A stretch of DNA of 64,000 nucleotides, taken from the NCBI GenBank assembly GCA_022844405.1, contig JALHLV010000001.1, forward strand, positions 1 through 64,000, given 5' to 3'. The stretch's first letter is position 1, and each line of letters begins with the position of its first letter. Made by a program: the position numbers and the translations under genes. This stretch comes from Sphingomonadales bacterium. GTDB lineage: Bacteria > Pseudomonadota > Alphaproteobacteria > SMXS01. The notes under the pieces are model-generated. The model saw only the letters and a list, made by a program, of their open reading frames with translations, made no database searches and was not told the origin of the DNA. Below are positions 3,074 through 21,293 of the stretch, in pieces.

Positions 3074-3075
3074 GG

Positions 3076-4707: not shown

Positions 4708-4716
4708 GTTCCTGTC

Positions 4717-6717
4717 CTAGGTCTGCGGCTGCGGCGTGCCCGGCTTATGCAGTACGGTCTTGATGTCGTTCGAATGGCCCTGGACCATAGTCCCGGCGCT
4801 GCTTAACAACGTGTCGGCCCCGGTATCCCCGGACGCATCCATCCTGTGGAAGCGGATCGAGGTGAAGCTGGCGGCGGGCAGCCCAAACTTGACCACCGCC
4901 TCCGCCGTCATGATGACGAGCGCAGCGGTTACGCGGCGGTCGCCAAGAATGGCCTTCGCCGAAGCGTAGCCGTCGCGAAGAGGCCCGATGATCCCCGCGC
5001 CCTCGATCCAGCCGCTCTTGCCCAACGAGACCGCGTTGCAGCCCATGCGTTTCGCCAGCTCGACCGGTGCCTTGGGGGGCTTGACATCGGGCCCTAGCAG
5101 GAAGAGGTGGAGCGGGATGTGGCTTCCATCCTTCAGCAGAGCGGCCAGCATATTTCCGAAGAGTTCCGGCGTGTCACGGTGGCTGATCTGGGGCTGGGCG
5201 TTAACCTCGCAAATCGCACCTTTCACCTCGCGCCACGATCTGGTGATGTCGGGGGTGATCAGGTCGATCCCGGCGATGTCGAGACCCAGTACCTGGGCGG
5301 CATGGATGGCAAGACTGAGATTGTCTGGGTGTATATCCGCGGCAGGGACGACGCCGTGCGTGCCGCCCGCCGAGATGTTGCTTTTCCGGCGCAGTGGGAT
5401 GAACTTGCCGGCGGGGGGGACGCTCTCGGTATCGAGTCCAGCCTCGGCGATGAGTTCGCGGGCCTCGTCGTCGAGCGTGAGGCGCATGACGTTCGTGCGC
5501 TTGAGCGTGCGCTGGTAATGGGGGTGGAGCTGCTCGTCGGCTATCAGGGTGGCGACGGTGCGTCGGCCGTCGCCGGTGATCCCGCCAGGGCGGCGATACA
5601 TGATCTTGATCACCTCGCCCTGCATCACGGTGATGCGGTAATCCTCGCCGGGGATATGCTTCTCGACCAGGATGAGGCCTGAATGTTTCGCGGCCTCCTG
5701 GAAGCTCGTGCGGACGACCTTCTCGGTTGCCAGCGAGGCGAAGACCCCAAGACCCTGTTCCTTGTCGGCAGGCTTGATCACTACCGGATAGCCCAGCCGA
5801 GCGGCGGCGGCGACTGCTTCGTCCTCGTTCGCGACGGGGATGTGGTCGGGCGTCGGCAGGCCGAAATAGCGCAGGATATGGGCTGACTTGGCTTTGTTCC
5901 CGGCCAATCTGACGCCGAACCACGGCGTGTTGCTGGTGATGCTGCTGTCCAGCCAGACGCTGTTTCTGCCGCAGCCATAGCGGAAGATGGCGTCGGCGAT
6001 CCAGTTTAGCTCGATCCGCCGGTCATAGGCGGCTTCCATGAAATGGAAGGTGTTGGTGCCCGGCACAGCGTAATCCTGCAGCTTCCTGGTCAATTCCGCA
6101 TACTTCTCGCGCAATACCTCACGCGATGCGTTGCCGTCCGCAGGGCCGGCGAGAAACAGGTTGATCGCCTCGATCGTCCAGCGCAGCGCCATCATGGTGG
6201 CGGCGGAGTTGGCGAGGGGTAAAGCGATCATGCGCAGCTGGTTTCCGGCCTTGTCACTCCCATCCTCAATAGGGGCGACATGACATGGCCCGAATACCGG
6301 CACGTTGACGCTGCGCTGGATGGCCGCGTGCCATTCATGCATCCGCTTGAGGAGGGACGCGCCAGTGTCTCTGCCAAGCGCGTCCTCCCGGATCGCGAGG
6401 TCGGGGACAAACTCCGACATGGCGCGGTCGAGTGCGTTGAAGTCGATCTTCGCGGGAAGCGCGATCCTGATCAAGCCGACGATGACCGGTTGCCTCAAGC
6501 CGAAGGCCATGCCAGGCAGCGTCCGGAAGGTCTTGTCCAGATCGAGAACGGGCTCGAACTTCTGCAGGACCGCGCCGCCGTTCGACATCATCATATGCAT
6601 CGCTCCGCCAACATAACCCTCGCCGCCATGGCCGGGAATAAACCGCAAAATCATTGCGAACCCGGTTCGGTCGACGCCTATTAAGCGGTTTGAGGCGTCG
6701 GCGATCAAGCGGTTCAT
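4717..6717 (-). CDS. cyanophycin-synthetase-like ATP-grasp ligase
   Basis: This 666-residue protein is the first gene of the island operon, with SD GAGAGGG before ATG at 6717. Residues ~235-520 match the CphA ATP-grasp core: SNTPWFGVRLAGNKAKSA, LGYPVVIKPADKEQG, VEKHIPGEDYRITV, GDGRRTVATLI, then DSVPP-like, FIPLRRKSNISAGG, GLDIAGIDLI and a metal-binding ICEVNAQP. The N-terminal ~230 residues have no CphA motif I recognise. After the ATP-grasp unit, residues ~580-640 (GCNAVSLGKSGWIEG, ITAEAVVKFGLP-like) resemble the start of the CphA Mur-ligase half, but the GTNGKTTT P-loop is missing and the protein stops early. It should form an amide or peptide bond by acyl-phosphate chemistry; it is unlikely to make cyanophycin. 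Confidence 0.82.
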   Translation of the reverse strand: MNRLIADASNRLIGVDRTGFAMILRFIPGHGGEGYVGGAMHMMMSNGGAVLQKFEPVLDLDKTFRTLPGMAFGLRQPVIVGLIRIALPAKIDFNALDRAMSEFVPDLAIREDALGRDTGASLLKRMHEWHAAIQRSVNVPVFGPCHVAPIEDGSDKAGNQLRMIALPLANSAATMMALRWTIEAINLFLAGPADGNASREVLREKYAELTRKLQDYAVPGTNTFHFMEAAYDRRIELNWIADAIFRYGCGRNSVWLDSSITSNTPWFGVRLAGNKAKSAHILRYFGLPTPDHIPVANEDEAVAAAARLGYPVVIKPADKEQGLGVFASLATEKVVRTSFQEAAKHSGLILVEKHIPGEDYRITVMQGEVIKIMYRRPGGITGDGRRTVATLIADEQLHPHYQRTLKRTNVMRLTLDDEARELIAEAGLDTESVPPAGKFIPLRRKSNISAGGTHGVVPAADIHPDNLSLAIHAAQVLGLDIAGIDLITPDITRSWREVKGAICEVNAQPQISHRDTPELFGNMLAALLKDGSHIPLHLFLLGPDVKPPKAPVELAKRMGCNAVSLGKSGWIEGAGIIGPLRDGYASAKAILGDRRVTAALVIMTAEAVVKFGLPAASFTSIRFHRMDASGDTGADTLLSSAGTMVQGHSNDIKTVLHKPGTPQPQT

Positions 6718-6995
6718 GTACCCTCTCCCCGCTCGGGCGTTGCCGTCGTCTTACGGTACTGGCCGCTTGTACCGCTCGATGGACGCGAGGGTAGCGGCGG
6801 TTTCATAGGTGATGTTGGCGACCAGGTCGCCGCACTCCGATTGCATCAGCATCGGCCAAGCTGATTGGGCGCCGTTGGAGACTGACGGGCAATATGAGGG
6901 ACACCTGCGCCGATGGTGTTTGCCGTCGGCGGGACAATGGGCATCGTCGCTCCCAGACGAGCACCTAAAGCGCTCTGTACTCTCGGTGGGCGAAG
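6718..6995. other. island right-end spacer with possible gene remnant
   Basis: This stretch between the ligase start and the right-hand repeat has no convincing complete gene. On the minus strand, a reading frame ending at 6751 has a protein-like C-terminus (DLVANITYETAATLASI followed by ERYKRPVP), but the upstream part of the same frame looks random and there is no ribosome binding site. It may be the tail of a gene cut by island formation. The promoter of the ligase operon should lie in the first ~100 bp upstream of 6717; I see no clear hexamers. Confidence 0.35.
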
Positions 6996-7014
6996 GCCCC
7001 CGCAACCAAATCAA
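6996..7014 (+). repeat. attR-like direct repeat (tRNA-fMet 3' end)
   Basis: This is the second copy of GCCCCCGCAACCAAATCAA, identical to 107-125. Only the 3' end of the tRNA is present here; the bases upstream (GGTGGGCGAAG) do not match the T-arm. Like the left copy, it is followed directly by a terminator hairpin. Confidence 0.8.
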
Positions 7015-7043
7015 AAACCCGTCCACGCAAGTGGGCGGGTTTT
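7014..7043. terminator. bidirectional terminator
   Basis: The arms AAAACCCGTCCAC (7014-7026) and GTGGGCGGGTTTT (7031-7043) pair with one T-G wobble around a GCAA loop. Runs of A and T at both sides let it work in both directions. It would stop the leftward gene ending at 7057, and in the ancestral arrangement may have been the terminator of tRNA-fMet. Confidence 0.85.
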
Positions 7044-7056
7044 GTCATGTTCCGGA

Positions 7057-7485
7057 TCAGCCCTGCGCTCTGAGGCCCGCCGCGGCGATGCCGGCCAGGG
7101 CGCAGATCTCGTCGGCGTCGGAGGTGTCGCCGGTCACGCCGACGGCGCCGATCGGCAGGCGGTCGTCGCCGACGATGATGACGCCGCCGGCGGCGGCGAT
7201 CACGCCGTCCCGCGACACCCGATCCAGCGACGACACGAAACCGGGCCGGATCTGCGACAGCTCTTCGATCTTGCGCGACGAGATGCCCAGCGCCAGCGCG
7301 CCCGACGCCTTGCCGATGGCGATCTGCGGCCGCAGCGTCGATGTGTTGTCCTCGAGCTGGAAGGCGATCAGCTTGCCGCCGGCGTCGAGGACGGCGATGC
7401 CCAGCGGCCGCAGCTTCATCTCGTGGCCCTTGGCGAGCGCGGCCTCGATGATGGTGTTGGCCTGCGCGAGCGTGACGTTTGCCAT
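7057..7485 (-). CDS. GlcG/HbpS family protein
   Basis: This 142-residue protein starts at ATG 7485 (MANVTLAQ), which has a perfect AGGAGG seven bases upstream; the longer open frame to 7515 is not needed. The sequence is typical of the GlcG/HbpS (DUF336, PF03928) alpha-beta fold: helix IIEAALAKGHEM, strand LGIAVLDAGGKLIAF, and the glycine-rich C-terminal GGVIIVGDDRLPIGAVGVTG. Members bind haem or act beside glycolate, diol or aromatic oxidation genes, but the function is not fixed. It is monocistronic here. There is no signal peptide, so the extracellular haem-sensor role of HbpS is unlikely. Confidence 0.85.
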   Translation of the reverse strand: MANVTLAQANTIIEAALAKGHEMKLRPLGIAVLDAGGKLIAFQLEDNTSTLRPQIAIGKASGALALGISSRKIEELSQIRPGFVSSLDRVSRDGVIAAAGGVIIVGDDRLPIGAVGVTGDTSDADEICALAGIAAAGLRAQG

Positions 7486-7804
7486 CCGGTTCCTCCTGTT
7501 TCCCCGCCGGTACAATGCATCCGGCAGGGGCCAAAGGAAACCGGCCTGGCGTCATGCGCCGCTGATTCGTACCGCCGAGGCGGTCCCGGCCGACCCTTAT
7601 GCACAGCGCCGCCGCCGCCGGGCTTGCCTTGATTTAGCCTTGTTTTGGAAAAAAATCGGACATCATTCCAAAGGGTTGGCGATGGATGGCGGATGCCCCG
7701 CGAAACAGCAAGCCCCCTTGATTTAATAACCCTTGAGAATGCGCTGATTTTTCAGGCTAATACAGGGGGATAGGGCAGCTAGTGAACATTGGGCGAGTCG
7801 GAGA

Positions 7805-9148
7805 ATGACGGGCCAACGTGCGCCACGAGGGAGCCGTATTTTAGACTTAATTGGAGACCGCGGCGGCAACATCGCGATGATCGTGGGGTTCGCCCTTCCG
7901 GTTTTCCTGGCGGCGCTGTCGCTGGGCTTCGAGTTGGGCCAGTGGTACCTGACCCGGCAAGCCATGCAGAACGCGGCCGATTCCGCCGTAGTGGCGGCAG
8001 CGGGCAATGGCGGCGCCAACTACGATGTGGAAGCCAAGGCCGTCGCGGCCACCTATGGTTTCGTTCACGGTGCCGATGACGTCACGGTTTCGGCGAGCAA
8101 CACCGCCGCCTGCCCGGCCGGCGGCAGCACCTGCTACAGCGTCACGATCAGCAAGAACACGCCGCTCTATCTCAGCCGCATGGTCGGCTTCCAGGGGTCG
8201 ACCACCGTGAGCGGCCAGCGCATGCAGACGCTGACCAGCGCCGCGGTGGCGGACCAGGGTGAAACGGAGCGGAAGTACTGCGTCCTCGCGCTCGCGGGCC
8301 TGTCGGGTCACAGCAGCGAGGAAGGCATCCGCTGCAACGGCTGCCCGAAGGCGGACCTGTCCGGCTGCAACGTCTATTCCAACAACACCGCGACCTGCAA
8401 CGGCCATACGACCCAGGCCGACATCGGCGACGCCTACGGCACCAACAATGGCTGCGGCGAAGAGGCCAACTCCAACATGCCGCATGTCTACGACCCCTAT
8501 GCGGGCCTGGCCAGCAACATCCCTGCCGATCCCTGCGGCGGCACCTATCATCAAGCGCCGACCAAGAAAAAGGATCCGGCCCTGCCGTCGTCCAATCTGT
8601 GGACCGGCGCCAAGACCGTGAACGGCAACACCTCGATCTGCGGCGATCTGCAGCTCTCGGGTGACGTCAACGTCAGCAATACGAGCGGCCATGGCGGCGT
8701 GCTGATCATCTGGAACGGCAACCTGGACACCGACGGCCACACGCTGCAGACCACGAGCGGCTACCTGACCATCGTCTTCGCCGGCAGCAACGGCAGCTAT
8801 GGCCACGCGCCGATCGGCGGCGGCGAGCTGAATTTCAGCGCGCCGCGCACTGGCGTCTGGAGCGGCGTGGCGATCTATCAGGCGCCGACGCTGACGTCGG
8901 GCGTCGACATCTCGGAAGCCGGCAACGAACCGACCTGGAACATCACCGGCATGGTCTACCTGCCCCATGCCAGCGTGACCTTCAGCGGCGCGGTGAACAA
9001 GTCGGCGACGAACGGCCTGTCGTGTTTCGCCATGGTCGTCGACAACATCCGGATCAACGGGACGGGGCTGATCTTCAGCGCCTGCGACCAAGCCGGCGTC
9101 GATCTGCCGAGCGCCATCGTCGCCGACCGGGCGGAACTGGTCTACTGA
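7805..9148 (+). CDS. TadG-like pilus-associated protein
   Basis: The 447-residue protein opens with the Tad/TadE-like helix GDRGGNIAMIVGFALP and the continuation VFLAALSLGFELGQWY, LTRQAMQNAADSAVVAAAG, which is the signature of TadG-like and 'Flp pilus assembly TadE/G-like' proteins. One N-terminal membrane helix (about residues 20-42) should leave the remaining ~400 residues in the periplasm. That part is rich in Gly, Asn, Thr and paired Cys (CNGCPKADLSGC, CGEEANSN), looks beta-rich, and has no named domain I recognise. No tad, cpa or flp genes flank it, so it is an orphan. The 290-bp region upstream is AT-richer and probably holds its promoter. Confidence 0.8.
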   Translation: MTGQRAPRGSRILDLIGDRGGNIAMIVGFALPVFLAALSLGFELGQWYLTRQAMQNAADSAVVAAAGNGGANYDVEAKAVAATYGFVHGADDVTVSASNTAACPAGGSTCYSVTISKNTPLYLSRMVGFQGSTTVSGQRMQTLTSAAVADQGETERKYCVLALAGLSGHSSEEGIRCNGCPKADLSGCNVYSNNTATCNGHTTQADIGDAYGTNNGCGEEANSNMPHVYDPYAGLASNIPADPCGGTYHQAPTKKKDPALPSSNLWTGAKTVNGNTSICGDLQLSGDVNVSNTSGHGGVLIIWNGNLDTDGHTLQTTSGYLTIVFAGSNGSYGHAPIGGGELNFSAPRTGVWSGVAIYQAPTLTSGVDISEAGNEPTWNITGMVYLPHASVTFSGAVNKSATNGLSCFAMVVDNIRINGTGLIFSACDQAGVDLPSAIVADRAELVY

Positions 9149-10509: not shown

Positions 10510-11763
10510 TCAGTCCCCCGCCAGCGCCGCTCGCGACCGCCACAGCAGCGCTCCGGCCGCCAGCTTCAGCAGGCAGGGCAGCAGGCAGTAGGTGGCCGCC
10601 AGGCCGGCCAGGCCGCCGGCGCCCGCCGGTGCGCCGGGCACATAGCCCAACAGTCCGACGAGGGGGAGCGCGAGCCCGGCCGCCAGCGCCAGGGTCAGCT
10701 TGGCGCCGAAGTTCCAGAGGCCGAAATAGCTGCCGCCGCGGCTTTGCGCGTCGCCGGCGCGCTGGATGATGCCGGCGAGCAGCGCCGCCGGGATGACGAG
10801 GTCGGCGCCGAGAGCGATGCCGGACAGGGCGCAGACGACGGCGAAGCCGAGCAGCGCCGCCTCAGGTGGTTGGCCCGGAAGGAAGAAAGCCCATGCGAAG
10901 GTGACGATCGCGAGTGCCATGCTGGCCAGCCATGCGCGGGCCAAGCCGATCCGGCCGGCGAGCCAGACCCAGATCGGGATCGCTGCCGCGCCGGTCACCA
11001 TGTAGAGCGCAAGCAGAGGGCCGATCCAATCACCGGCGCCGAGCGCGTCGCGCACGAAGAACGGCATCAGCGTGGCCGGAATGGCGCTGGCGATGCCGTT
11101 CACCACGAACACCGACCAGAGCGGCGAGAAGCCGGGGCGGCGCAGCGGCAGCAGCCAGCTGGCCGGGGCGACACGACCGCTCGGCCGGGTGGCGGGACGC
11201 GGCGTGCCAAGCACCAGCCATGCGCTCGTCAGCAGCAGCAGCGCCGCCAGTAGCGCGCTGGTGGCGGCCATCCCGGCGAATTGGGGCACCAGGGCGCCGA
11301 GCAACATGCCGGCGAGGCCAAACCCCTCGCGCACACCGACGACGCGGGCGCGCGCGGCCGGCGCCGAGGCCAGTTCGACGCCCCACGCATGGTAGGCGAT
11401 GGAGCCCAGGCTGAAGCCGGCGAAGCTGAGCAGCAGCAGGCCCAGCAGCCAGGCCGAGGCGGCCAGCGGCTCGAGCGGCGGGGCGAGGAACAGCCCGGCG
11501 AAGCCACACGCCACCAGCGGCACCGATACGACGATCGCCGTTCCGTAGCCCTTCCCGGCGCGCATGTGATCGACCCAACGGCCGATCAGCGGGTCGGCGA
11601 AGGCGTCGGCAAGGCGGGACACCAGCAGCAGCACCCCGATCAACGCGAGCCCCAAGCCGTGGTGGCGCGCATAGAAGTCCGGCAGCGTCACATAGAGCGG
11701 CAGCGCCAGGAAGCCCAGCGGCAGGCCGAACGCGCCATAGGAGGCCAGCGCCAGCGGCGACAT
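10510..11763 (-). CDS. MFS transporter (GPH/MFS_2-like)
   Basis: This 417-residue inner-membrane protein has about 12 hydrophobic helices. The start chosen is ATG 11763 (MSPLALASYGAFGLPLG); a TTG at 11799 that overlaps the preceding stop is an alternative, and the longer frame to 12021 is a shadow of the upstream gene. The early segment LLLVSRLADAFADPLIG with the following DHMRAGKGYG matches the D-x-x-x-DP-x-x-G loop of glycoside-pentoside-hexuronide type symporters. The substrate is unknown. It lies between the chalcone isomerase-like and DUF3833 genes and probably serves the same envelope process. Confidence 0.83.
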   Translation of the reverse strand: MSPLALASYGAFGLPLGFLALPLYVTLPDFYARHHGLGLALIGVLLLVSRLADAFADPLIGRWVDHMRAGKGYGTAIVVSVPLVACGFAGLFLAPPLEPLAASAWLLGLLLLSFAGFSLGSIAYHAWGVELASAPAARARVVGVREGFGLAGMLLGALVPQFAGMAATSALLAALLLLTSAWLVLGTPRPATRPSGRVAPASWLLPLRRPGFSPLWSVFVVNGIASAIPATLMPFFVRDALGAGDWIGPLLALYMVTGAAAIPIWVWLAGRIGLARAWLASMALAIVTFAWAFFLPGQPPEAALLGFAVVCALSGIALGADLVIPAALLAGIIQRAGDAQSRGGSYFGLWNFGAKLTLALAAGLALPLVGLLGYVPGAPAGAGGLAGLAATYCLLPCLLKLAAGALLWRSRAALAGD

Positions 11764-11795
11764 GCCGGATATGGGCCGGGCCGGCGCCGCGGCCG

Positions 11796-12386
11796 TCAAG
11801 GGGAACGGGCCTCTCCGAGCAGGGCGGCGCGCATCTCGGGCGCACGGCTGTCGGGATGCAGCCAGATGGCGAAGAAGGCATAGGCGAACTCGGCGCCCTC
11901 GACCCGGCCGATGGGCGCACCGTTCTTCAGGAACAAGGTGTAGCCTTCCGGCCGGTAGATGCCGGTCAGGTGGTCGCCCTTGCGCACGTCGGGAAGCAGC
12001 CCCTCGAGCGTCGCTTGCCACCTGCGGCGCTGCGTGTCGTCGCTCAGGCTGAGGCGTTCCATTTCCTTGCGTGTGCGTTTGGCGATGGCCGAGCCCTTGA
12101 AGTCGCGGGCGTAACGCAGGTCGAGGGCATACGGACGGTCGGCGACGATGGCCTCGCCCAGGCCACCAGGTCCAACGAACAGGCGCGCGTCGTAGATGTG
12201 GAAGCCGAGCATTTTCAGCGAGCCGGCGCCGGACAGGCGTGCCTCGGGGATAGTTTCGCGCACCATGGCCTCGACCACCGCTTTATGTGCGAGCGAGGCA
12301 GCCGCGAGCGTCGGCACCGCGAGGCCCAGGGACAGAAAAACCAGTGTGGCCAGGGCGAGTTTACGGAGCGGCATGGTGTTTTCCAT
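11796..12386 (-). CDS. chalcone isomerase-like exported protein
   Basis: This 196-residue protein has an N-terminal signal peptide (LALATLVFLSLGLAVPTLAAA, cleavage near residue 30). The mature sequence has the bacterial chalcone isomerase-like pattern: LKMLGFHIYDARLFV, YALDLRYARDFKGSAIAKR, then WQATLEGLLPDVRKGDHLTGIY and the C-terminal FFAIWLHPDSRAPEMRAALLG. Bacterial members are periplasmic, probably fatty-acid-binding, and generally lack evidence of flavonoid chemistry. It is the first gene of the leftward trio. Confidence 0.86.
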   Translation of the reverse strand: MENTMPLRKLALATLVFLSLGLAVPTLAAASLAHKAVVEAMVRETIPEARLSGAGSLKMLGFHIYDARLFVGPGGLGEAIVADRPYALDLRYARDFKGSAIAKRTRKEMERLSLSDDTQRRRWQATLEGLLPDVRKGDHLTGIYRPEGYTLFLKNGAPIGRVEGAEFAYAFFAIWLHPDSRAPEMRAALLGEARSP

Positions 12387-12495
12387 GCTGCCTTTACGCA
12401 GCGAAGACGTGTTCGGATCTGCCGGAAAGCGGATGAGTACGCCGGAAAAGGCCAGTCCCTGAGTACCGTCTTGCGCGGCGCTGGACGCGCGCCGA

Positions 12496-13788
12496 TCAGC
12501 CCAGGGGCTCGTTGCGGGTCTCGCGCAGGCCGAGTGTGGCGAGCAGGCTCAACACGGCGGCGGCGGTCAGATAGGCGCCGACCAGATGCAGGCCGCCGCG
12601 GTCCGCCAGCATCTGCGCGATCATCGGCGCGAAGGACGCGCCCAGGATGCCGCCCAGATTGTAGGTGACCGAGGCGCCGGTATAGCGCACCGGGGTGGGA
12701 AACAGCTCGGACAGCACCGCGCCCATGGGGCCGAAGATCAGCCCCATGCAGAACAGCGCCATGCACAGGAACGCGGCGACCTCGACCGTCGAGCCGCTCG
12801 ACAGCATGGGCGCGAGCAGGAAGCCCATGGCGCCGGTCGCCACCAGACCGGCCAGCAGCACCGGCTTGCGGCCGATCTTGTCGCTCAGCCAGGCCGAGAT
12901 CGGGATGCCCGCCGCCATGAACAGGATCGCCAGGCACAGCAGGCCCAGGAAATCCTCGCGGCTGTAGCCCAGATTCTTGGTGCCGTAGCCCAGCGAGAAC
13001 ACGGTCGACAGGTAGAACACCGCGTAGCACGCGACCATGGCCAGCGTGCCCAGGACGGTGTCGCGCCAGTATCTCGACAGCAGCGTGCCCAGCGGGACGC
13101 GCTGCGTCTCGCCCTTTGCCATGGCGTCGCGGAACAGCGGCGTCTCGGTCAGCTTCAGCCGGACATAGAGGCCCACCGCCAGCAGCACCGCGCTCATCAG
13201 GAACGGAATGCGCCAGCCCCAGCTCCGGAACTGGTCGTCGTCGAGGCTCGCGGCCAGCACCAGGAACAGGCCGTTGGCGGCGACGAAGCCGACGGGCGCG
13301 CCGAGCTGCGGGAACATGCCGAACCACGCCCGCTTTCCCGGCGGCGCGTTCTCGACGGCGAGCAGGGCCGCGCCGCCCCATTCCCCGCCCAGGCCGATGC
13401 CCTGGCCGAAGCGCAGCACGCAGAGCAGGATGGGCGCGGCGAGCCCGATCGAGGCATGGGTCGGCAGCAGGCCGACCAGCGTGGTCGAGACACCCATGAT
13501 CATCAGCGAGGCCACCAGCGTCGACTTGCGCCCGATGCGGTCGCCGAAATGGCCGAACAGCGCCGAGCCCAGCGGCCGGGCGATGAAGGCGATGCTGAAG
13601 GTGGCGAAGGACAGCAGCTGCTGGGCGCTGGTCGATTCCTGGGGGAAGAACAGCGGCCCGAACACCAGCGCGGCGGCGGTGGCATAGACGTAGAAGTCAT
13701 AAAACTCGATCGCCGTGCCGATGAAGCTGGCGACGACGATCCTGCCGGTCGTGTTGGCCGGCGCGGCCTGGGCGGCTGCCGTGGACAT
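12496..13788 (-). CDS. MHS-family metabolite:proton symporter (MFS)
   Basis: This 430-residue, 12-helix transporter has the metabolite:H+ symporter signature near its N-terminus (SFIGTAIEFYDFYVYATAAA) and the conserved loop RPLGSALFGHFGDRIGRK between helices 2 and 3, followed by GEWGGAALLAVENAPPGKR. Relatives include ProP, KgtP and ShiA, which import osmolytes, dicarboxylates or shikimate. The substrate cannot be assigned from sequence alone. It starts at ATG 13788, just downstream of repeat copy A, and seems monocistronic. Confidence 0.88.
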   Translation of the reverse strand: MSTAAAQAAPANTTGRIVVASFIGTAIEFYDFYVYATAAALVFGPLFFPQESTSAQQLLSFATFSIAFIARPLGSALFGHFGDRIGRKSTLVASLMIMGVSTTLVGLLPTHASIGLAAPILLCVLRFGQGIGLGGEWGGAALLAVENAPPGKRAWFGMFPQLGAPVGFVAANGLFLVLAASLDDDQFRSWGWRIPFLMSAVLLAVGLYVRLKLTETPLFRDAMAKGETQRVPLGTLLSRYWRDTVLGTLAMVACYAVFYLSTVFSLGYGTKNLGYSREDFLGLLCLAILFMAAGIPISAWLSDKIGRKPVLLAGLVATGAMGFLLAPMLSSGSTVEVAAFLCMALFCMGLIFGPMGAVLSELFPTPVRYTGASVTYNLGGILGASFAPMIAQMLADRGGLHLVGAYLTAAAVLSLLATLGLRETRNEPLG

Positions 13789-13810
13789 ACTGGTCTTCCC
13801 CGCTGGAGCG

Positions 13811-13895
13811 GTTTCAGCTGGTGCTCGACCGCTGCAGCATCTTGTCGCCGCGGCTTTCGGACGCCAAGGCTATTCCACCTTGGCTGAAGGCGCTC
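13811..13895. repeat. dispersed intergenic repeat, copy A
   Basis: This ~85-bp segment aligns over its whole length, in the same orientation, with 19662-19745. The strongest shared block is TCGCCGCGGCTTTCGG followed by CGCCAAGG, and both copies end TTGGCTGAA-GCGCTC. Each copy is intergenic and contains imperfect palindromes around CAGCT. It resembles the small dispersed repeats common in alphaproteobacterial genomes. The two copies bracket the PqqD/HprK module. Confidence 0.7.
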
Positions 13896-13916
13896 TAAAC
13901 GCCCGGAACCATTGCA

Positions 13917-15092
13917 CTACCGCATGCGCCGCGCAATAGGCCCGGCCCATCGGCGCCGGACCGCGCCCGTGACGTACCGAACCGGCCGGTGCGCGCGCTG
14001 GATCGCGCCGAGGACGACGTTCGCCGGTCCATAGGTCCAGGAGAGGCAGGTGGCGGATGGCAGCACCAGATAGCGCAGGATTTCCCGCCAGGCGCCGACG
14101 TCGATGCCAGGGGCGCCGAGCGCGCGGCGGGCGGCGCCGAGGCCGGTGAAGGCGCCGTCGATCGCTGCCTCCCGGTCGAGCCGGCCGGCGCGGCCGGCTT
14201 CCACGTCGAGCTCGGCCAGCACGTCTCGCGGGACGTGCCCGCCAAGGGAGTCGGCGAGATACCGGCATAGCAGCGAAAACGGCAGCGCAAGCCGGCGCGT
14301 CGCGGTCTCGGCCAGGAATACCGGCCAGTCCACGGCGGGTAGCGCCAGAAAGGCATCGCACGCCCATCTCAGATTGGCCCGCTCGCGAGTCGAGGCCGCC
14401 CGCGACAGCGTCATTATCAGCCGATCGGTGGCGCAGGCGCAGGGTGTGGCTCTGCCGCCGAGATCGAGAGGCGCCGCGCGCCGCAGCACGCCGTCACCCT
14501 GAACCTGGTGATGGGGATGGAAGGCGATATCATGCAGCAGGTGGAGCGCCAGGCCATCGCTGTGGCGGAATGCCGTGCGCGCCAGGTCGAGCGGCGTAAA
14601 TCCGGCTCGCGCCAGCGCGGCCGATGCGCGGGCGCGGTCCTGATCGGATACCAGCAGCTCGATGGCGTGGCAGTGGCGCAGGGCCGGCGCCGCATAGACC
14701 GTATGGGCGGCCACGAGTCCGCCCAGCAGGTTGAACGGAATACGGTCCGCCTCCAGCGCGTCCAGCACCCTGGCCAGGATCGCGGCGATCAGGCCGGTGC
14801 GCAGTTCCTCGCGCAGCGCCGACGCCTTCAGATAGATGCCCAGGCCGTCCGGTCCGGGAAAGCCATGGGCGCGCGCCGCCGCGTCGACCAGCGGCAACAG
14901 GCCCTTCAGACCACGGGTTTCGGTCTCCAGCGTCACCTTGGGATCGCCGACGGCGCCGCGCCATGCATCCCACGCGGCGCGGGCAGGGTCCGCGTCCTGC
15001 AGGCAGGCGCGCAGCAGCAGGGTGTCGGCGCAGTCCGGCAGGATGGCGGCGGCGATCGCGGCGTTCAGGCCGCGGCGGGCGGGCGGGCTCAT
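13917..15092 (-). CDS. nucleotidyltransferase-family protein (NTP_transf_5-like), probably degenerate active site
   Basis: This 391-residue protein has the layout of the NTP_transf_5 group: helical N-terminus, a small Pol-beta-like nucleotidyltransferase core near residues 115-165 (FNLLGGLVAAHTVY, then LRHCHAIELLVSDQ), and a helical C-terminal half. In functional relatives the core strand reads DIDLLV, supplying two metal-binding aspartates; here it reads AIELLV, so the first is lost and the second is Glu. It may be regulatory or structural. It is the last gene of the module and its start overlaps the GT2 stop by 4 nt (15089-15092). Confidence 0.75.
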   Translation of the reverse strand: MSPPARRGLNAAIAAAILPDCADTLLLRACLQDADPARAAWDAWRGAVGDPKVTLETETRGLKGLLPLVDAAARAHGFPGPDGLGIYLKASALREELRTGLIAAILARVLDALEADRIPFNLLGGLVAAHTVYAAPALRHCHAIELLVSDQDRARASAALARAGFTPLDLARTAFRHSDGLALHLLHDIAFHPHHQVQGDGVLRRAAPLDLGGRATPCACATDRLIMTLSRAASTRERANLRWACDAFLALPAVDWPVFLAETATRRLALPFSLLCRYLADSLGGHVPRDVLAELDVEAGRAGRLDREAAIDGAFTGLGAARRALGAPGIDVGAWREILRYLVLPSATCLSWTYGPANVVLGAIQRAHRPVRYVTGAVRRRWAGPIARRMR

Positions 15093-15784
15093 GAGGATGG
15101 GCGGCGCAGGCGGGCCAGCCGGGAGCGAGCGACCCGAAGCCGCTCATCCGGCTCCTCGCCGGCCCGGTGCCGGCTCATGTTGTTGTCGTGGATACGGCGC
15201 CGGGCCAGCACGTCGGGAAGGATTTCGATGACGGCGCCGGCGTCACCGGCGCGCAGCAGCCACTCGGTCCAGTCCAGATGCCGGAGGGCTTCGTCCAGCA
15301 ATCCTACCCGGTCGAAGACGGTTCGCCGCATCAGGGTGACGGAAATGCCGCCGGTCTGTCCCGATCCATTGAAGGCGTCATCCAGGGCTGCCGCTTCGTG
15401 CTCCAGCCCGGAAACCCACCAGTGTTGCGCCTGCGACAGGCAGACCTGAAGCTCAGGCCGTGCCTCGAACCGGGCGATCTGCATTCCCAGTTTGTGCGGC
15501 AGCCACTCGTCGTCCGAGTCCAGGAAGGCGACAAATTCCCCGCGTGCCATCCGCAATCCGGCATTGCGGGCGGCCGCCGGTCCGGCATTCTCCTGACGCA
15601 GGGCGCGGACGCGCGTGCCCATGGCGCCGATCACGTCCGGCGTGCCGTCGGTGGAGCCGTCATCGACAATGATGATCTCGATGGGGCGCCAGGTCTGGGC
15701 CTCGATGCTGGCGACGGCGTCCACGAGAAAGGGCGCGCCGTTGAACACCGGCACCACGCAACTGACCAGCGGGTGTCCGGTCAT
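15089..15784 (-). CDS. family 2 glycosyltransferase
   Basis: This GT-A enzyme has 231 residues from ATG 15784 (MTGHPLVSCVVPVFNG); the long upstream extension is a shadow of the PqqD-like gene. Landmarks in order: VSCVVPVFNGAPFL, IIIVDDGSTDGTPDVI (nucleotide binding), NAGPAAARNAGLRMARGE, FVAFLDSDDEW (DxD metal site) and a C-terminal HLDWTEWLLRAGDAG (the ED/W acceptor motif equivalent). No membrane helix is visible, so it works on the cytoplasmic side. It starts 12 nt after the PqqD-like gene and overlaps the next gene. Confidence 0.9.
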   Translation of the reverse strand: MTGHPLVSCVVPVFNGAPFLVDAVASIEAQTWRPIEIIIVDDGSTDGTPDVIGAMGTRVRALRQENAGPAAARNAGLRMARGEFVAFLDSDDEWLPHKLGMQIARFEARPELQVCLSQAQHWWVSGLEHEAAALDDAFNGSGQTGGISVTLMRRTVFDRVGLLDEALRHLDWTEWLLRAGDAGAVIEILPDVLARRRIHDNNMSRHRAGEEPDERLRVARSRLARLRRPSS

Positions 15785-15795
15785 CGGCCCGGCCG

Positions 15796-16218
15796 TCAGC
15801 GGGGTGCCGCCGGGAGCGGAGGATCGAGCGCCAGCAGGTCGGCCATGTCGTCGTAACGGTTCAGCACGGGGGCGGTGTAGGTGGCGGGCGCGGCCAGACC
15901 GGCGCCGGCGGGTACGGTGGATGGCGCTTCGAGGGACGGAACGACCAGTTCCTGGGCTACCAGCTCGCCCAGCAGCCGGCCGATGTCGGCCCGCGCCATG
16001 TCGCGGTCGACGCCATACCGGCTGGCGATGCCATCGATGATCGCGTCGGCGTCGCTGCCCGCGGCGATGTCTTCCCACACCAGGCAGCCGATCCCGTCCA
16101 TGCTGTAATAGACGCCGGTGCCCAGGTGAATGATGACGGCTTCGCCATCCATCACCTTGGCCGTAACCTGCGGCTCGTTGAGCCGAAACCTGCCGTCCAT
16201 CAAGAGCGTCCCTCTCAT
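15796..16218 (-). CDS. PqqD-like peptide chaperone / RRE-domain protein
   Basis: This 140-residue protein (134 if it starts at the ATG at 16200; both have a plausible ribosome binding site) contains a PqqD-type winged-helix domain: FRLNEPQVTAKVMDGEAVI, then LGTGVYYSMDGIGCLVWE, and DAIIDGIASRYGVDRDMARADI. PqqD domains bind the leader of ribosomal peptides and present it to a modifying enzyme. A proline-rich linker leads to a conserved-looking tail, PVLNRYDDMADLLALDP, that I associate with PqqD-like proteins in HprK/nucleotidyltransferase clusters. No precursor peptide or radical SAM enzyme is nearby, so its partner here is unknown. Confidence 0.85.
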   Translation of the reverse strand: MRGTLLMDGRFRLNEPQVTAKVMDGEAVIIHLGTGVYYSMDGIGCLVWEDIAAGSDADAIIDGIASRYGVDRDMARADIGRLLGELVAQELVVPSLEAPSTVPAGAGLAAPATYTAPVLNRYDDMADLLALDPPLPAAPR

Positions 16219-16277
16219 GTCAACGCCTCAATATCATGGCCACGCCGGCAGGAAAACGCTCCATCGCGTCCGGCGGA

Positions 16278-17408
16278 TCATCCCCGCGCCGCGATGCGGC
16301 GATAGAGCCTGTCGAGCGCATCGACGACCGTGTCCATGCCGAACAATCGTTGGGCGCGGTCTCGGCCGCGCAGGCCCATTGCGGCAAGGGCCGCAGGATC
16401 GGACAGCATGGCGATCGCCGCCTCAGCCAGCGCGACCGCATCGTCGCCCGGCACCAGCCGTCCGGTCACGCCGTCCTCGACGGCCTCGCGCAGGCCGCCG
16501 ACGGCGGCCGCCAGCATGGGCTTCGACTGCAATGCCGCTTCCACCGCGACCAGGCCAAAGGGTTCCTGCCACCGGGACGGCATGATCACGAGCGTGGCGC
16601 GGGCCATCAGCGCCGGCATGTCGCCGGGCTGGACCCAACCGATGAAATCGATGGACTCCGCGACACCCAGGCTCCGGGCCTGCCGCTCCAGCGCCTCACG
16701 CTCCGGCCCGTCACCGGCCATGGTCATGCGCGCCGAGGGAAAATGCCGAAGGATGGCGGCGAAGGCCGCGACGGCAAGGTCCATGCCCTTTTCCGGCACC
16801 AGCCTGCCGGCGCAAAGCAGGTGGGGGGCGTCGTGCGGTGCGGTGGCCGGTGCCGGGTCGGCCCGCGGTGGCTCGACGCCGTAATGGATCAAGGAACTGC
16901 GGCCGGCAACGGCCGGAGCGACCGTCCGGGCGTCCTCCAGCACCGCCTGCGAATGGGCGACGACCCAGTCGGACCGGTCGAAGATGTCACCCAACAGGGT
17001 GCCGGCGCCGCCGCGCAGGCCGCTGACCGGTCCATGGAGCGTGGTCACCGTTCGCGCGGGCGCCGCCTGCGCCGTCCTCAGGTGGTAGAATGCCATGGGC
17101 CCGCTGAAATTCAGGTGCACGATGTCCGGCGCGATGTGCTGCTTGAGGGCCCGGACCTGCCGCAAATTCTCCATCAGCAGTCCGGGGTCGCCGCGCGACA
17201 TGGCCGCGCGCAGCGGCAGCCGTCGGAGAACGATGCCGTCCATGTCCTCGTGGTCCGGCAACGAGCCATCGGCGTCACCCGTCAACACATGGACGTCGTA
17301 ACCCCGCGCGGCCAGGCGAGGCAGCAAGGCATGGCTGAACGTCTCGATGCCGCCGATACTGGGCCACAGGACTTCGGCCCAGTAGAACAGCCTGGGGGGC
17401 GTCGTCAT
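16278..17408 (-). CDS. family 4 glycosyltransferase
   Basis: This GT-B enzyme has 376 residues from ATG 17408, overlapping the kinase stop by 4 nt. Landmarks are LWPSIGGIETFSHALLPRLAARGYDV at the N-terminal acceptor domain, HLLCAGRLVPEKGMDLAV at the donor domain, and the EPFGLVAVEAALQSKPM motif (E-x7-E). It should add a hexose or similar sugar to a lipid-linked or soluble acceptor in the cytoplasm. Its tight coupling to the HprK-like gene shows the module has a glycan component. Confidence 0.9.
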   Translation of the reverse strand: MTTPPRLFYWAEVLWPSIGGIETFSHALLPRLAARGYDVHVLTGDADGSLPDHEDMDGIVLRRLPLRAAMSRGDPGLLMENLRQVRALKQHIAPDIVHLNFSGPMAFYHLRTAQAAPARTVTTLHGPVSGLRGGAGTLLGDIFDRSDWVVAHSQAVLEDARTVAPAVAGRSSLIHYGVEPPRADPAPATAPHDAPHLLCAGRLVPEKGMDLAVAAFAAILRHFPSARMTMAGDGPEREALERQARSLGVAESIDFIGWVQPGDMPALMARATLVIMPSRWQEPFGLVAVEAALQSKPMLAAAVGGLREAVEDGVTGRLVPGDDAVALAEAAIAMLSDPAALAAMGLRGRDRAQRLFGMDTVVDALDRLYRRIAARG

Positions 17409-18469
17409 CGTTCCTCCGCTCCGTTGACCGGATCGAGCGTGTCGAACAGGGCGTTGACCGCGCCGGGAATGGCGTCGACGTCGCGGCCCAGTTCCAGCCA
17501 GTAGCACGGCACGCTGTCGATCAGGCCGGCAATCCGTTCCATAGCGTCATGGTCGACGATGGGCAGCGACATGATCGAGCTGGGCGCCATGGAGAGCAGG
17601 GCCTGGCCCTTGCGCGCCGGGCGGAAGATGGTATCGGGACGGTCGACGATCCTGGGCAGCACGACCGCGCCGATGGGCACGCGCGCGGCCATGCGGGTGG
17701 CATCGATCGGGGTCAGATAGACGACGGCTTTCTGCTCGAAGTCGTTGCGCGGCGGCAGCGAGCGGGCTTCCAGGTCGGGAAACCGCCGGATGTGGTCCAC
17801 ATCGACCAGGCACGAGCCATAGAGGCTGTGACCGACAAATCCGCTGTCCGTGCGCTCCAGGCCAATCGCGTCGTCGCCCAGATAGGACAGGCCGGCGCGG
17901 AAGCAGGAAATCGAGGAGGTGGTCTTGCCCGACCCGCCCACGCCGACGAACAGCATGCCTCTCATGATGCCGTCCGGCGCCTGACGCGCGATCAGGCCGG
18001 CATGGACGAACTGGATGCCATGGCCAGAGAGCCACAGGCAGAACATGCGGTGGAAAGGCCGCGCCCGTTCGTCGAGGGCGCGCCGGCCGAGGCCAACGGC
18101 CGAGCCGACGACCCTGTTGCGCTCGCGGTCATACCAGATGGCGCCCGAAGGCCTCTGTTCACCCAGATAACGGCGGTCGTCGGAGATGGTGAACTGGCCG
18201 AACGGCCTGACCTGCTCAACCGGCGCGCCCAGGATGGCGGCGACGCCGGTTTCCTCCTCGCTCCACAGGTCGACGGTCATCTCCGGTTCCCGATCGGTCC
18301 CGCCGCGGAGGTGGGAAAGCGGCAGGTCCACTTCCCCCGCGAGGGCGGGGCCGGCGACGCGGACGCGGACCGGCCGCCCGCCGACCAGATAGTGGACGGT
18401 CGTGCCGCGGCGCGAGAAGGCGACGTCGAATGAAGTCGACGCGGCGTCGAAAAGGGGAGCGATATCCAT
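17405..18469 (-). CDS. HPr-kinase-like (HprK-related) protein
   Basis: This protein has 354 residues from ATG 18469 (MDIAPLFDAASTSF). The C-terminal half is an HPr serine kinase/phosphorylase-like P-loop domain: LFVGVGGSGKTTSSISC (Walker A), FRAGLSYLGDDAIGLE (Walker B region) and the following strand pattern to PIGAVVLPRIV. The N-terminal ~150 residues match the HprK-related proteins that travel with PqqD-like and nucleotidyltransferase genes. There is no HPr or PTS gene nearby, so the classical role in sugar regulation is unlikely. In some RiPP clusters such kinases phosphorylate the peptide; here the substrate may be a peptide, a nucleotide-linked intermediate or a sugar. Confidence 0.85.
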   Translation of the reverse strand: MDIAPLFDAASTSFDVAFSRRGTTVHYLVGGRPVRVRVAGPALAGEVDLPLSHLRGGTDREPEMTVDLWSEEETGVAAILGAPVEQVRPFGQFTISDDRRYLGEQRPSGAIWYDRERNRVVGSAVGLGRRALDERARPFHRMFCLWLSGHGIQFVHAGLIARQAPDGIMRGMLFVGVGGSGKTTSSISCFRAGLSYLGDDAIGLERTDSGFVGHSLYGSCLVDVDHIRRFPDLEARSLPPRNDFEQKAVVYLTPIDATRMAARVPIGAVVLPRIVDRPDTIFRPARKGQALLSMAPSSIMSLPIVDHDAMERIAGLIDSVPCYWLELGRDVDAIPGAVNALFDTLDPVNGAEER

Positions 18470-18482
18470 CAGACCCGCCTCG

Positions 18483-19622
18483 TCACGTATTGATGTGGCG
18501 CTTGACCAGAACCCGGTCCAGCAGCCTGCCCTTGTGCCGCGCCGCGATGACCCGCGCATGCCTCAGCCTCGCGGCCGCCAGTTTCAGGGGGTTCCGGATG
18601 CCGCAGCCATAGATCAGATCAATGTGATGCTTCTTGAATGGCGAGGACAGGACGCGGATCAGCTGGGTGAAGGCCATGGTCCTGGGCGACTTCAGCAGCC
18701 GCAACGCATGGCGGTGCCGAAGCCGGGCCGCGCGGCCCGGCGGCTCGTCCAGCGGCCAGGGCAGCCCCAGCAATTGCTCGGCCTGATACAGCCGGGCCCT
18801 GAGGACGCCGGCCATGCCGGCTGCGCGCATCAGCCCGTCAACTTCGCGCCAGTCGATGTCCGGGCCGTGCCGGCGGCAAATCTGCGCCAGGTCCACCAGC
18901 TGCCGGGTCCTGATCAGGCCCAGTGTGTGGCCCTGATCCTGGACCTGCGAGTGGAAGATGTTGTGCCAGACCCTGTGGGCGGGCGACAGCACGCGCAGGC
19001 GCGGGTCGGAAGCCAGCGGCCTGCTGTTTTCCAGCGCGATGGCAGCCGACAGCAGCGACCGCTGCTGCCCGACCCGGTGGTGCAATTCCACGTCGGAGAC
19101 GTCGCCCCGCCGCCGCATGGCGGGGTAGGTGTAGACCCAGTCGTCGTTCGGTTCCTCGGTGACCTCGTAGCCTTGCGCCTGCATGGCGGCGGCAACCGGC
19201 TCGACCGCGTCGGCCGGCAGCAGGAAATCCAGGTCCCACATGAATCGCGCGCCGATCTCGTCCGGCGGGGCATCCATCAGGGTCGCGCCGCCTTTCAGGA
19301 TCGCCGGCGCCACGCCCAGCCGTTCGCAGATGTCCACCACGTTCCGCCCCTGGTCCCGAATGCGCTCGTTGCGGAGCACATTCATCATGTGGCGCCGTTG
19401 CAGGGCGCCGCGCACGGCGGCGGGAACGCGCTCGATCAGGCCCTTGCCCTTCAGGCTCAGCCATAGGGCCGGCGCCAGATTGCCGGCGTCGGCCGATGCG
19501 ACCAGCGCGGTCCAGGCCTGCTCGTCTTCCGGCGCCGGAAGTGCCCGGCCGAGCATGTCGCGGGTCGCCGGCCCGTCGTCGATCGACAGGCAACGGCAAA
19601 GCAGCAGATGGGGACTCATCAC
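18483..19622 (-). CDS. nucleotidyltransferase-family protein (NTP_transf_5)
   Basis: This 379-residue protein has a clear NTP_transf_5 core near residues 105-155: the G-motif LKGGATLMDAPPDEIGARF and then MWDLDFLLPADAVEP, where the D-x-D pair of a Pol-beta-fold nucleotidyltransferase is intact. A helical C-terminal region with HRVWHNIFHSQVQDQG, probably a HEPN-like or substrate-binding part, follows. It starts the compact block between the two repeats and ends 13 nt before the HprK-like gene. Biochemical targets of this family are unknown; transfer of a nucleotidyl or aminoacyl-adenylate group in glycan or peptide tailoring is possible. It pairs with the degenerate relative at 13917-15092. Confidence 0.82.
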   Translation of the reverse strand: MMSPHLLLCRCLSIDDGPATRDMLGRALPAPEDEQAWTALVASADAGNLAPALWLSLKGKGLIERVPAAVRGALQRRHMMNVLRNERIRDQGRNVVDICERLGVAPAILKGGATLMDAPPDEIGARFMWDLDFLLPADAVEPVAAAMQAQGYEVTEEPNDDWVYTYPAMRRRGDVSDVELHHRVGQQRSLLSAAIALENSRPLASDPRLRVLSPAHRVWHNIFHSQVQDQGHTLGLIRTRQLVDLAQICRRHGPDIDWREVDGLMRAAGMAGVLRARLYQAEQLLGLPWPLDEPPGRAARLRHRHALRLLKSPRTMAFTQLIRVLSSPFKKHHIDLIYGCGIRNPLKLAAARLRHARVIAARHKGRLLDRVLVKRHINT

Positions 19623-19661
19623 GTCGTCCGGCCCGTCGATTCTGGCATTTACACTACGGCG

Positions 19662-19745
19662 TTTTCAGCTAGCGCTGAACCACTCTAGCATTTCTCGCCG
19701 CGGCTTTCGGGCGCCAAGGCGATTCCGCGTTGGCTGAAAGCGCTC
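19662..19745. repeat. dispersed intergenic repeat, copy B
   Basis: This is the partner of copy A at 13811-13895 in direct orientation, lying between the AlkP gene and the first nucleotidyltransferase gene. Substitutions are scattered and there are no large gaps. It probably separates two transcription units, so the AlkP gene may be expressed apart from the rest. Confidence 0.7.
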
Positions 19746-19775
19746 GAAGGTGCCGATAATGGCCGGTACAGGGCG

Positions 19776-21293
19776 TCATCCGATCGGTCCGCCAGGCGCC
19801 GTGCCCGGCAGCGGCGTGCCCTCGCAGCCCGGCAAAGCGACGCCGAGCAGGGCCCCGACCGTCGCGGCCAGATCTTCCACCGGGCGGGGCGGGGCCGTGA
19901 GGCCGGCTTCCAGACCGCCACCCGCGGCGACCAGCAATCCACCGGGCACATGCGCCCCGGTCCGCGGCGTTCCCGCGGGGCTTCGGATGAGGCCGATCTT
20001 GCGGGACGCGGCCGAGGTGGCGCGTCGGGACAGGTTCCAGAACACCAGCAGGTCGGGCAGGTGCGACAGCAGCGGGCCGGCATAGAGCCGGCCGATGGGC
20101 ACCACATCGTCGATCAACCGCTCGCCGGTTTCCGGGTCCACGATATCGAGCAGATCGCGCGAAAGCCGGGCACAGAAGGCGTCGGCCTCGGCGCCGGGCT
20201 CGATCAGACCGCTGGCCTCGCGGCCCGCGAGATTGAGCCGGATGCCGCTGACATGTTCGCTCGGCTCGATGGAGAAGGCGGGTTGTCCGGCCCGGTGGCT
20301 GGTCCCGGCAGCGCCCGCGATCCGCCGCAACGCCCGGCGACCGCGGCCGCCGGCGAGATCGATCAGCCGGGCCGCGAGCGGCTTGAGCAGGCGGCGGACC
20401 GACGCGACCTGCGGCCGGTGAGACGGACAAAGCCGGTCGAGTATTTCCGGCAACAGCCTGGCGAGCCCACGACTGGGTCCCATGCCCAGCGCCGAGAAGA
20501 CGATCACGGTGGTATCGGGTCCAGCGCGGGCGATGAGGTCGCCCATGGCGCTGTCGATGGCCTGGTGCGCGCGCAGCAGGGGATCGCCGGTCAGCGCCGC
20601 CAGATCCGGAGGGTGGTCCGGATGCGAGCGGTCGTGCAGATGCCAGCCATGGTGTCCGGCGCAATGGGCTTCCTTGAACACCGCGAAGAACAGGTCCCAG
20701 GGCTCCCGGTCGATCAGCGACAGGCAGAGGTCGCGCTTCATGCCGGTGCTGGTTTCCAGCCGTTCCAGCATGCCGTCGTAGCCCGCCGCGTCGAGCGACG
20801 GCTGGGAGAAGCCGCACAGGCTTTCCGGCGCCGGGCCGAACCGGTCGATGGTTTCGCGGGCGAAGTGTTCGGGGAACGCCACGGGCGCGGCGTGATCGCG
20901 GCCATGCACCAGCCAATCGCCGAGGTACACGCCGTTGAGCGTGGCGGGCAGCGGGCTCTTGGGCACGTCGATCACCGCCACGCGCTTGCCGGCGCGGCCC
21001 AGCGTGGCCCAGATCGGCTCGTGGCACAGATCACCGTCGGCAAAGCTGGGCAGGCTGTAGCTGCCGGGCCGTAACCGCCGATAGTAGAACCGGCCATGGG
21101 TTGCCGGTGAAACGCCGGTGTAGACGGTGGCCCAGGTGCCATCGTCGCCGCATCCCGGCGGTCCTTCGAGGCGGCACGTCATGCCCCGCGCGCGCAGCGC
21201 CCGAAGCGTCGGCAACGATCCGTCCTCGCTCCAGCGCAGCAGCAGGTCGGGATTGCCTGCGTCCACGCCCAGCAGCATCACGTGTCCCGGCAC
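19776..21293 (-). CDS. AlkP-superfamily phosphohydrolase / phosphodiesterase
   Basis: This protein has 505 residues from GTG 21293, which has GAGGGGG close upstream. Superfamily landmarks are VMLLGVDAGNPDLL (metal), DGTWATVYTGVSPATHG (nucleophile Thr region), FKEAHCAGHHGWHLHD (metal His/Asp), TVIVFSALGMGPS and a C-terminal PRTGAHVPGGLLVAAG. It has no signal peptide. The protein at 3076-4707 is a paralogue (shared PWDLF, DSAMGDLIA-like and IRLNLAGREASG blocks), though the final metal site here (GAHVPGG) differs from SHGARID there. It probably hydrolyses or transfers a phosphate on a sugar or lipid intermediate of the module. Confidence 0.83.
   Translation of the reverse strand: MPGHVMLLGVDAGNPDLLLRWSEDGSLPTLRALRARGMTCRLEGPPGCGDDGTWATVYTGVSPATHGRFYYRRLRPGSYSLPSFADGDLCHEPIWATLGRAGKRVAVIDVPKSPLPATLNGVYLGDWLVHGRDHAAPVAFPEHFARETIDRFGPAPESLCGFSQPSLDAAGYDGMLERLETSTGMKRDLCLSLIDREPWDLFFAVFKEAHCAGHHGWHLHDRSHPDHPPDLAALTGDPLLRAHQAIDSAMGDLIARAGPDTTVIVFSALGMGPSRGLARLLPEILDRLCPSHRPQVASVRRLLKPLAARLIDLAGGRGRRALRRIAGAAGTSHRAGQPAFSIEPSEHVSGIRLNLAGREASGLIEPGAEADAFCARLSRDLLDIVDPETGERLIDDVVPIGRLYAGPLLSHLPDLLVFWNLSRRATSAASRKIGLIRSPAGTPRTGAHVPGGLLVAAGGGLEAGLTAPPRPVEDLAATVGALLGVALPGCEGTPLPGTAPGGPIG

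Follow-up and report, generated by a model that had tools for sequence, protein, structure and literature searches.

A PqqD-like protein with a leader-like C-terminal tail in a kinase, nucleotidyltransferase and glycosyltransferase operon of a Sphingomonadales bacterium

The operon and its PqqD protein

The window considered here, a stretch of 64,000 nucleotides (nt) from a Sphingomonadales bacterium (assembly GCA_022844405.1, contig JALHLV010000001.1, positions 1 to 64,000), contains a single tight minus-strand operon encoding, in this order, a nucleotidyltransferase (NT2), an HprK-like kinase, a GT4 glycosyltransferase, a PqqD protein, a GT2 glycosyltransferase and a second nucleotidyltransferase (NT1) (Table 1). 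This six-gene module had been described in an earlier reading of the DNA letters (the sequence-only reading), and all six genes were confirmed, on the same strand and at the same coordinates. That reading found no radical SAM enzyme, cyclase or peptidase, in agreement with the scan of 10 window proteins (10510 to 21293), among which no Asn synthase, radical SAM enzyme or peptidase was detected. It overlooked one feature of the PqqD protein, which, with its 140 amino acids (aa), exceeds the length of a discrete RiPP recognition element (RRE; RiPP, ribosomally synthesized and post-translationally modified peptide) and closes with a conserved stretch that resembles a leader peptide (hereafter, the tail). 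The most likely place of the 'missing' precursor is on the RRE chain itself, as a fusion.

The RRE domain combines a PF05402 match above the cut-off with the RRE fold and a leader cleft. The groove positions, mapped from the PbaB1 contacts via the PbaB1 sequence (PMC13381572; this and the other articles are cited for the portions of their text that were examined), are kept in kind, being hydrophobic or aromatic in the window protein (Y38, M40, I43, V47, I64, Y68, V70, L82, L86 and L91). The tail of 27 residues that follows the variable linker, YTAPVLNRYDDMADLLALDPPLPAAPR, is near-invariant within the genus. The codons for Y122-R140 display 59 synonymous and 4 non-synonymous differences (summed over the 6 pairs of 4 genomes), and the protein sequence of the tail is therefore under selection. 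Mean pairwise identity among 20 sequences from outside the window's clade is 47% for the tail, 30% for the RRE and 12% for the linker. The tails found in other phyla are mostly longer (type FVPPKLNRYTDMQDLLLLDPIHEVDEAGWP), with conservation reaching into IHEVDExGWP; a short variant ending in DPPLP or DPPMP is found in the window's genus, in a related genome (G007) and in two Gemmatimonadota. The Asp of LDP is the sole fully invariant tail residue (27/27 tails; alignment counts are for 27 of the 28 loci described below, the Crinalium locus, row 23, having been left out).

A motif of the form [FYWL]xxPx[LIVMF] opens the tail in 22 of the 27 aligned rows. The Crinalium tail, FEKPMLEKFTDMEDLL, which lies outside the alignment, has this motif too, and was compared with the annotated paeninodin precursor of a Priestia plasmid, MKKEWKKPELEVLDVNK. 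Discrete lasso RREs bind [Y/W]xxPx[L/V/I/F/A] (PMC13381572), and W/Y/LxxP/L/I is listed for several RRE groups (PMC12710340). An RRE and a [Y/W]xxP motif are both present on one chain, and are predicted to bind one another. In the PbaB1-PbaA crystal, the pockets are filled by W-15, P-12 and L-10, and the following three residues extend the RRE sheet (PMC13381572). The AlphaFold2 model of the window PqqD (mean predicted local distance difference test score, pLDDT, of 88 overall, 93 for residues 111-120 and 66 for the linker block before them) similarly has a strand formed by N120-R121-Y122, which directly follow L119. In the model of the PqqD from a relative (locus L084), LNRY (122-125) forms a strand, and residues 115-116 form a two-residue bridge whose counterpart is at 64-65, which is where K-18 of PbaA contacts D68/E70 of PbaB1 (PMC13381572). 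The best PDB matches of both models are TbiB1-leader complexes (Foldseek top match for the window protein, 5v1v_A, E 3.9e-06), and a profile of the tail gave no match among PDB chains. From these models, the tail probably binds the leader groove of its own RRE.

Table 1. Genes of the operon, parts of the PqqD protein and the adjoining upstream gene
Feature	Position	Strand	Basis and remarks
NT2, NTP_transf_5 protein	18483-19622	-	PF14907, 123.1 bits; DxD intact (DLDF at residue 130)
HprK-like kinase with the H-K-D-D residues of lasso/LPP kinases	17405-18469	-	residues and profile alignment
GT4 glycosyltransferase	16278-17408	-	PF00534, 126.8 bits
PqqD/RRE protein with C-terminal leader-like tail, 140 aa	15796-16218	-	PF05402, 53.8 bits (cut-off 23.4)
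RRE domain, residues 15-92	15943-16176	-	hydrophobic leader-groove positions kept in kind
Variable linker, residues 93-113	15880-15942	-	0.91 bits mean relative entropy (27 rows)
Tail, residues 114-140	15799-15879	-	YxxPxL leader motif, DDMADLLALDP, then PLPAAPR
GT2 glycosyltransferase	15089-15784	-	PF00535, 114.7 bits
NT1, NTP_transf_5 protein	13917-15092	-	PF14907, 83.6 bits; DxD degenerate (RHCHAIELLV)
Type I phosphodiesterase/AlkP-like protein	19776-21293	-	PF01663; beside the module at L020 and L022; orientation inverted at L023

The genes overlap by 4 nt at GT4/HprK and GT2/NT1 and are otherwise separated by gaps of 11 to 59 nt, so short that there is no space inside the operon for a separate precursor open reading frame (ORF). 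The GT2 and GT4 starts were read by eye, the query sequences beginning 5 (GT2) and 1 (GT4) codons upstream. The phosphodiesterase/AlkP-like gene lies 153 nt upstream from NT2 and is probably a genus-specific addition to the block. A 57-nt intergenic repeat flanks the block from NT1 to NT2 (copies at 13842-13898 and 19692-19748, 88% identical); it is a dispersed repeat (21 matches in the window genome, 19 in G001, 11 in G003, 2 in G005 and none in G007). PADLOC (7 proteins) and PHROGs (3 proteins) gave no matches to a defence or phage module.

Distribution, gene company and tailoring enzymes

At each of the 28 distinct loci compared (the window and 27 others, contigs encountered twice being counted once), which come from at least seven phyla, the tail forms part of a PqqD protein (28/28). 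The carriers include Chloroflexota, a Syntrophaceae metagenome-assembled genome (MAG), Actinomycetota, Ignavibacteria, Gemmatimonadota, the isolate Rudanella paleaurantiibacter and a plasmid of the cyanobacterium Crinalium epipsammum PCC 9333; Rudanella and Syntrophaceae were placed in the phyla to which we take them to belong. MAG titles are partly unreliable as taxonomic labels: L073 (title Kuenenia) and L078 (title Rhizobium sp.) are contigs of G003 and G001, that is, of the window's alphaproteobacterial genus. The tail-directed searches likewise led back to PqqD. Across 385 genomes of the class, a profile of the window-type tail gave 12 matches, 10 of them in PqqD; the two others (in G085, in a frame presumably TrpF-like, and in G205) were marginal and were rejected as chance-like, lying in unrelated frames. 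With a profile of the other tail type, all six places matched in 398 genomes of the phylum were PqqD, as were all 14 loci confirmed from the 47 contig stretches matching a search pattern, to which that search was limited. A search of plasmids for a stand-alone tail gave the Crinalium PqqD alone.

Within 10 kb of the tail, a GT2 was present at 28/28 loci, an HprK-like kinase at 25/28, an NTP_transf_5-like protein at 23/28 and an ATP-binding cassette (ABC) protein at 7/28 (counts from hidden Markov models built from these loci, with representatives confirmed in Pfam). GT2, in one to five copies, is the sole companion present at every locus. Gene order is identical in G003 and G005, GT4 is lacking in G001, and both GT4 and HprK are lacking in G007. 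The full-length PqqD gave no copy in three genomes of the genus, G002 (100% complete), G004 (78%) and G006 (84%), and the module is therefore accessory. Neither Asn synthase nor PF13471 was found among the 30 neighbour proteins of relatives that were scanned; the module is recurrent and lacks the usual lasso/PQQ core enzymes, a lack that the sequence-only reading had noted. The ABC proteins of three of the seven loci are 370-aa proteins rather than fused exporters, and the transporter of L084 is MsbA/glucan-exporter-like; no MsbA-like exporter was found in the window module. A family of about 350-530 aa (cluster C8) adjoins the tailed PqqD genes in L068, L069 and L081, and the two members scanned had no Pfam match.

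The kinase has no match in Pfam, scores 26.2 bits against NCBIfam HprK_rel_A (cut-off 200) and gave nothing credible in a phmmer search of the PDB. It bears the residues VHAG...GVGGSGKT...GDD, a pattern matching 24 of 25 module kinases, one having Pro for His and one ED for DD. A kinase profile from 13 relatives aligned over 182 columns (hhalign probability 95.3%) with the protein encoded between the paeninodin precursor and the PqqD chaperone. The paeninodin-cluster protein is annotated 'aldolase', but we infer from its place and residues that it is a PadeK-type kinase. PadeK phosphorylates a C-terminal Ser, PsmK also phosphorylates, and PsmN puts a hexose on the phosphate (PMC9266682). The Thr of RYTDMQ, frequent in canonical tails, was considered as the kinase substrate and rejected; this residue is Asp in the window's clade and in others, and the site is, thus, not general. 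In NT1, the first Asp of the DxD motif is lost in the window (AIE; AID at the same place in G001, G003 and G005), and this protein may be inactive, judging from its degenerate motif. At the Crinalium locus, too, one of the two nucleotidyltransferases has a degenerate DxD and the other an intact one.

Readings of the module

The module can be read as a RiPP-type tailoring system that adds phosphate and glycan and is related to that of the linear polyphosphorylated peptides (LPP); in it, the RRE would come with its leader already bound in cis and the tail would be decorated, a reading to which we give about an even chance. Residues 114-122 (YTAPVLNRY) would occupy the RRE's own leader groove, from which the conserved DMxxLLxLDP segment would project toward the enzymes; NT2 and the glycosyltransferases would build a glycan, and the kinase would add phosphate, on the PqqD-tail protein. 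Such a scheme would correspond to an LPP- or paeninodin-like system with precursor and RRE on a single chain, and its product may stay protein-bound, because no peptidase was found. That the tail is the acceptor, rather than a docking arm alone, seems to us slightly short of an even chance. More tentatively, the module could represent a natural RRE-precursor fusion across many phyla, with the recognition protein's own C-terminus serving as both leader and acceptor peptide and carrying a phosphoglycan assembled without leader cleavage. The suggestion in the sequence-only reading that PqqD had been reused as a glycan carrier is kept in a more specific form, with the tail as the candidate acceptor or docking site.

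Several observations weigh against a decorated tail in an RRE loaded with its own leader. The motif, as scored, is missing from 5 of the 27 tails, including all three rhizobial ones, and no Ser, Thr or Tyr is conserved across the 27 aligned tails. The window tail has no Ser, and T115 is its only Thr, so that the potential acceptors are tyrosines, T115, carboxylates and arginines, whereas the target of LppK is a single Ser, which can be replaced by neither Thr nor Tyr (PMC13381572). The invariant Asp of LDP is at most a candidate modification site. Three of the 28 loci have no HprK and five have no nucleotidyltransferase in view, some of these loci being at contig ends, and both G007 and G016 retain the tail without a module-type HprK. 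The structure models were built on 22 and 27 sequences, and the strand has a presumed pairing partner. The simple picture is further complicated by two radical SAM proteins among the 30 neighbour proteins of relatives (L082:6034-7110, with SPASM, and L077:4727-5692, a weak match), which perhaps provide a further tailoring step.

Because the tail family has no conserved hydroxyl residue, a rival explanation stays close, in which the tail is a permanent pseudo-leader plugging the groove, its DMxxLLxLDP helix recruits GT2, NT and HprK to a scaffold, and a different molecule (a peptide, a lipid or a sugar) is the acceptor. The most conserved tail stretch is indeed predicted to be helical (residues 125-129 in the window, 128-134 in L084), and the C-terminal part of LPP leaders lies off the RRE and is proposed to meet the modifying enzymes (PMC13381572). 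However, no other acceptor turned up within the operon or next to it, and conservation extends past the predicted helix, into IHEVDExGWP and, in the window's genus, PLPAAPR. A role as a docking arm alone is possible but rather unlikely.

The sequence-only reading had proposed that the RRE serves an unlinked precursor encoded elsewhere, which now appears improbable. Some RiPP systems do have unlinked precursors, and a lasso-like locus lies on another contig of the window genome (L115, G000:C22:18000-34000, with Asn_synthase at 3039-4856(-), FecR at 5129-6079(+), an extracytoplasmic function sigma factor at 6848-7348(+) and Transglut_core3 at 7418-8164(+)). The tail is, however, already fused to PqqD, where it would compete with such a precursor for the groove. 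The 3.78-Mb window genome (G000) has only one PF05402 match, the operon PqqD, and the tail profile gave no second copy in it; four of the five module-bearing genomes of the genus or family (G001, G003, G005 and G007) have no PF13471 peptidase anywhere. Nor did the short ORFs near the module and its relatives contain a peptide recurring across genera: an all-against-all comparison of the 1357 small ORFs (25-125 aa) from the surroundings of the modules gave few and weak cross-genus pairs (E 0.01 to 3e-04), none of which recurred between modules. Two unannotated ORFs considered as precursors (L082:9258-9656 and L083:14331-14657) look spurious. Repeated small ORFs encoding secreted-looking small proteins (MKKIILTAAALLAISGSAFAGSD...NLFGNN) lie near the rhizobial modules (L098:13425-14371, L096:10896-11210 and L097:5533-6312).

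Slightly less probable again is that the locus serves glycosylation of the polysaccharide type, with the RRE turned into a regulator or an assembly factor and without modification of any peptide. The universal presence of GT2, in up to five copies, and the MsbA/glucan-exporter-like nature of the transporter scanned are consistent with this explanation, but, in lasso/LPP systems, HprK proteins with H-K-D-D residues and PF14907 proteins are partners in the tailoring of peptides, and the leader motif is kept in the tail and the groove in the RRE. A lasso cluster severed from its core genes, suggested by a kinase and an NTP transferase typical of paeninodin-like clusters, was rejected as highly improbable, given a form conserved in at least seven phyla, the lack of Asn synthase and PF13471 among the 30 neighbour proteins, the four PF13471-free genomes (which run counter to the constant position beside a lasso or other RiPP core that the sequence-only reading had named as what would refute its own view) and the location of the window genome's lasso-like locus on a separate contig.

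Comparison with known systems

The nearest published system is that of the LPP (lppAKBSDN), published in 2026 (PMC13381572). The sequence-only reading considered either of its explanations to be undescribed, but a set consisting of an RRE, an HprK, an NTP transferase and an MsbA-like protein without a cyclase is already on record in that article; for the fusion of an RRE to its own leader, no report was found in the full-text literature searched, bioRxiv and most subscription journals being outside its reach. The module resembles LPP in its RRE, HprK-like kinase (with the catalytic H, K, D and D in the window), NTP transferase, YxxP leader motif, absence of a cyclase and setting among glycosyltransferase genes (PMC13381572), and, in some relatives' loci, an MsbA-like transporter; the LPP NTP transferase was equated with PF14907 by assumption for this comparison, and the window has two PF14907 copies. 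The module differs in having its leader motif on the C-terminus of the RRE, in its one to five GT2 genes and in its occurrence outside Bacillota. No SpI-like leader peptidase was found among the 10 window proteins or the 30 proteins scanned from the neighbourhoods in relatives, there is no intergenic room and no cross-genus recurrent small ORF for a discrete precursor of the type YxxPxVLxHQxIxFETxxS, and the Ser acceptor that follows the LPP leader is absent from the window tail and not conserved in the 27 tails. The lack of these three elements indicates that the module is not a member of LPP.

The paeninodin and pseudomycoidin systems (PadeK, PsmK, PsmN) share with the module an H-K-D-D kinase, a nucleotidyltransferase-like protein and a WxxPxL leader motif, and the RRE fold of the module is closest to lasso B1 proteins. 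Unlike these systems, the module has no recognised Asn-synthase cyclase or B2 peptidase, and its precursor is not a separate gene. The pair formed by an HprK-like and a PqqD-like protein is also found in SynChlorMet (ScmC/ScmD), to which there were sub-cut-off NCBIfam matches in relatives. The SynChlorMet cassette contains radical SAM proteins and precursors, none of which is present in the window. The module offers a one-protein assay for the function of PF14907 and lasso-type kinases.

The module PqqD has the same domain, fold and groove as the discrete RREs of the PqqD family (PF05402), but differs from them in its length of 140 aa, its linker and its tail. RREs are defined by the binding of another protein's leader, and a built-in leader, if true, would change the reading of orphan RREs. 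Fusions of RREs to enzymes are mentioned by RRE-Finder (PMC7470986) and in PMC12710340, with no leader fusion in the portions examined. The module PqqD is a member of the unannotated class of more than 110 aa, which makes up 21% of PF05402 proteins (PMC12710340) and part of which could hold such tails.

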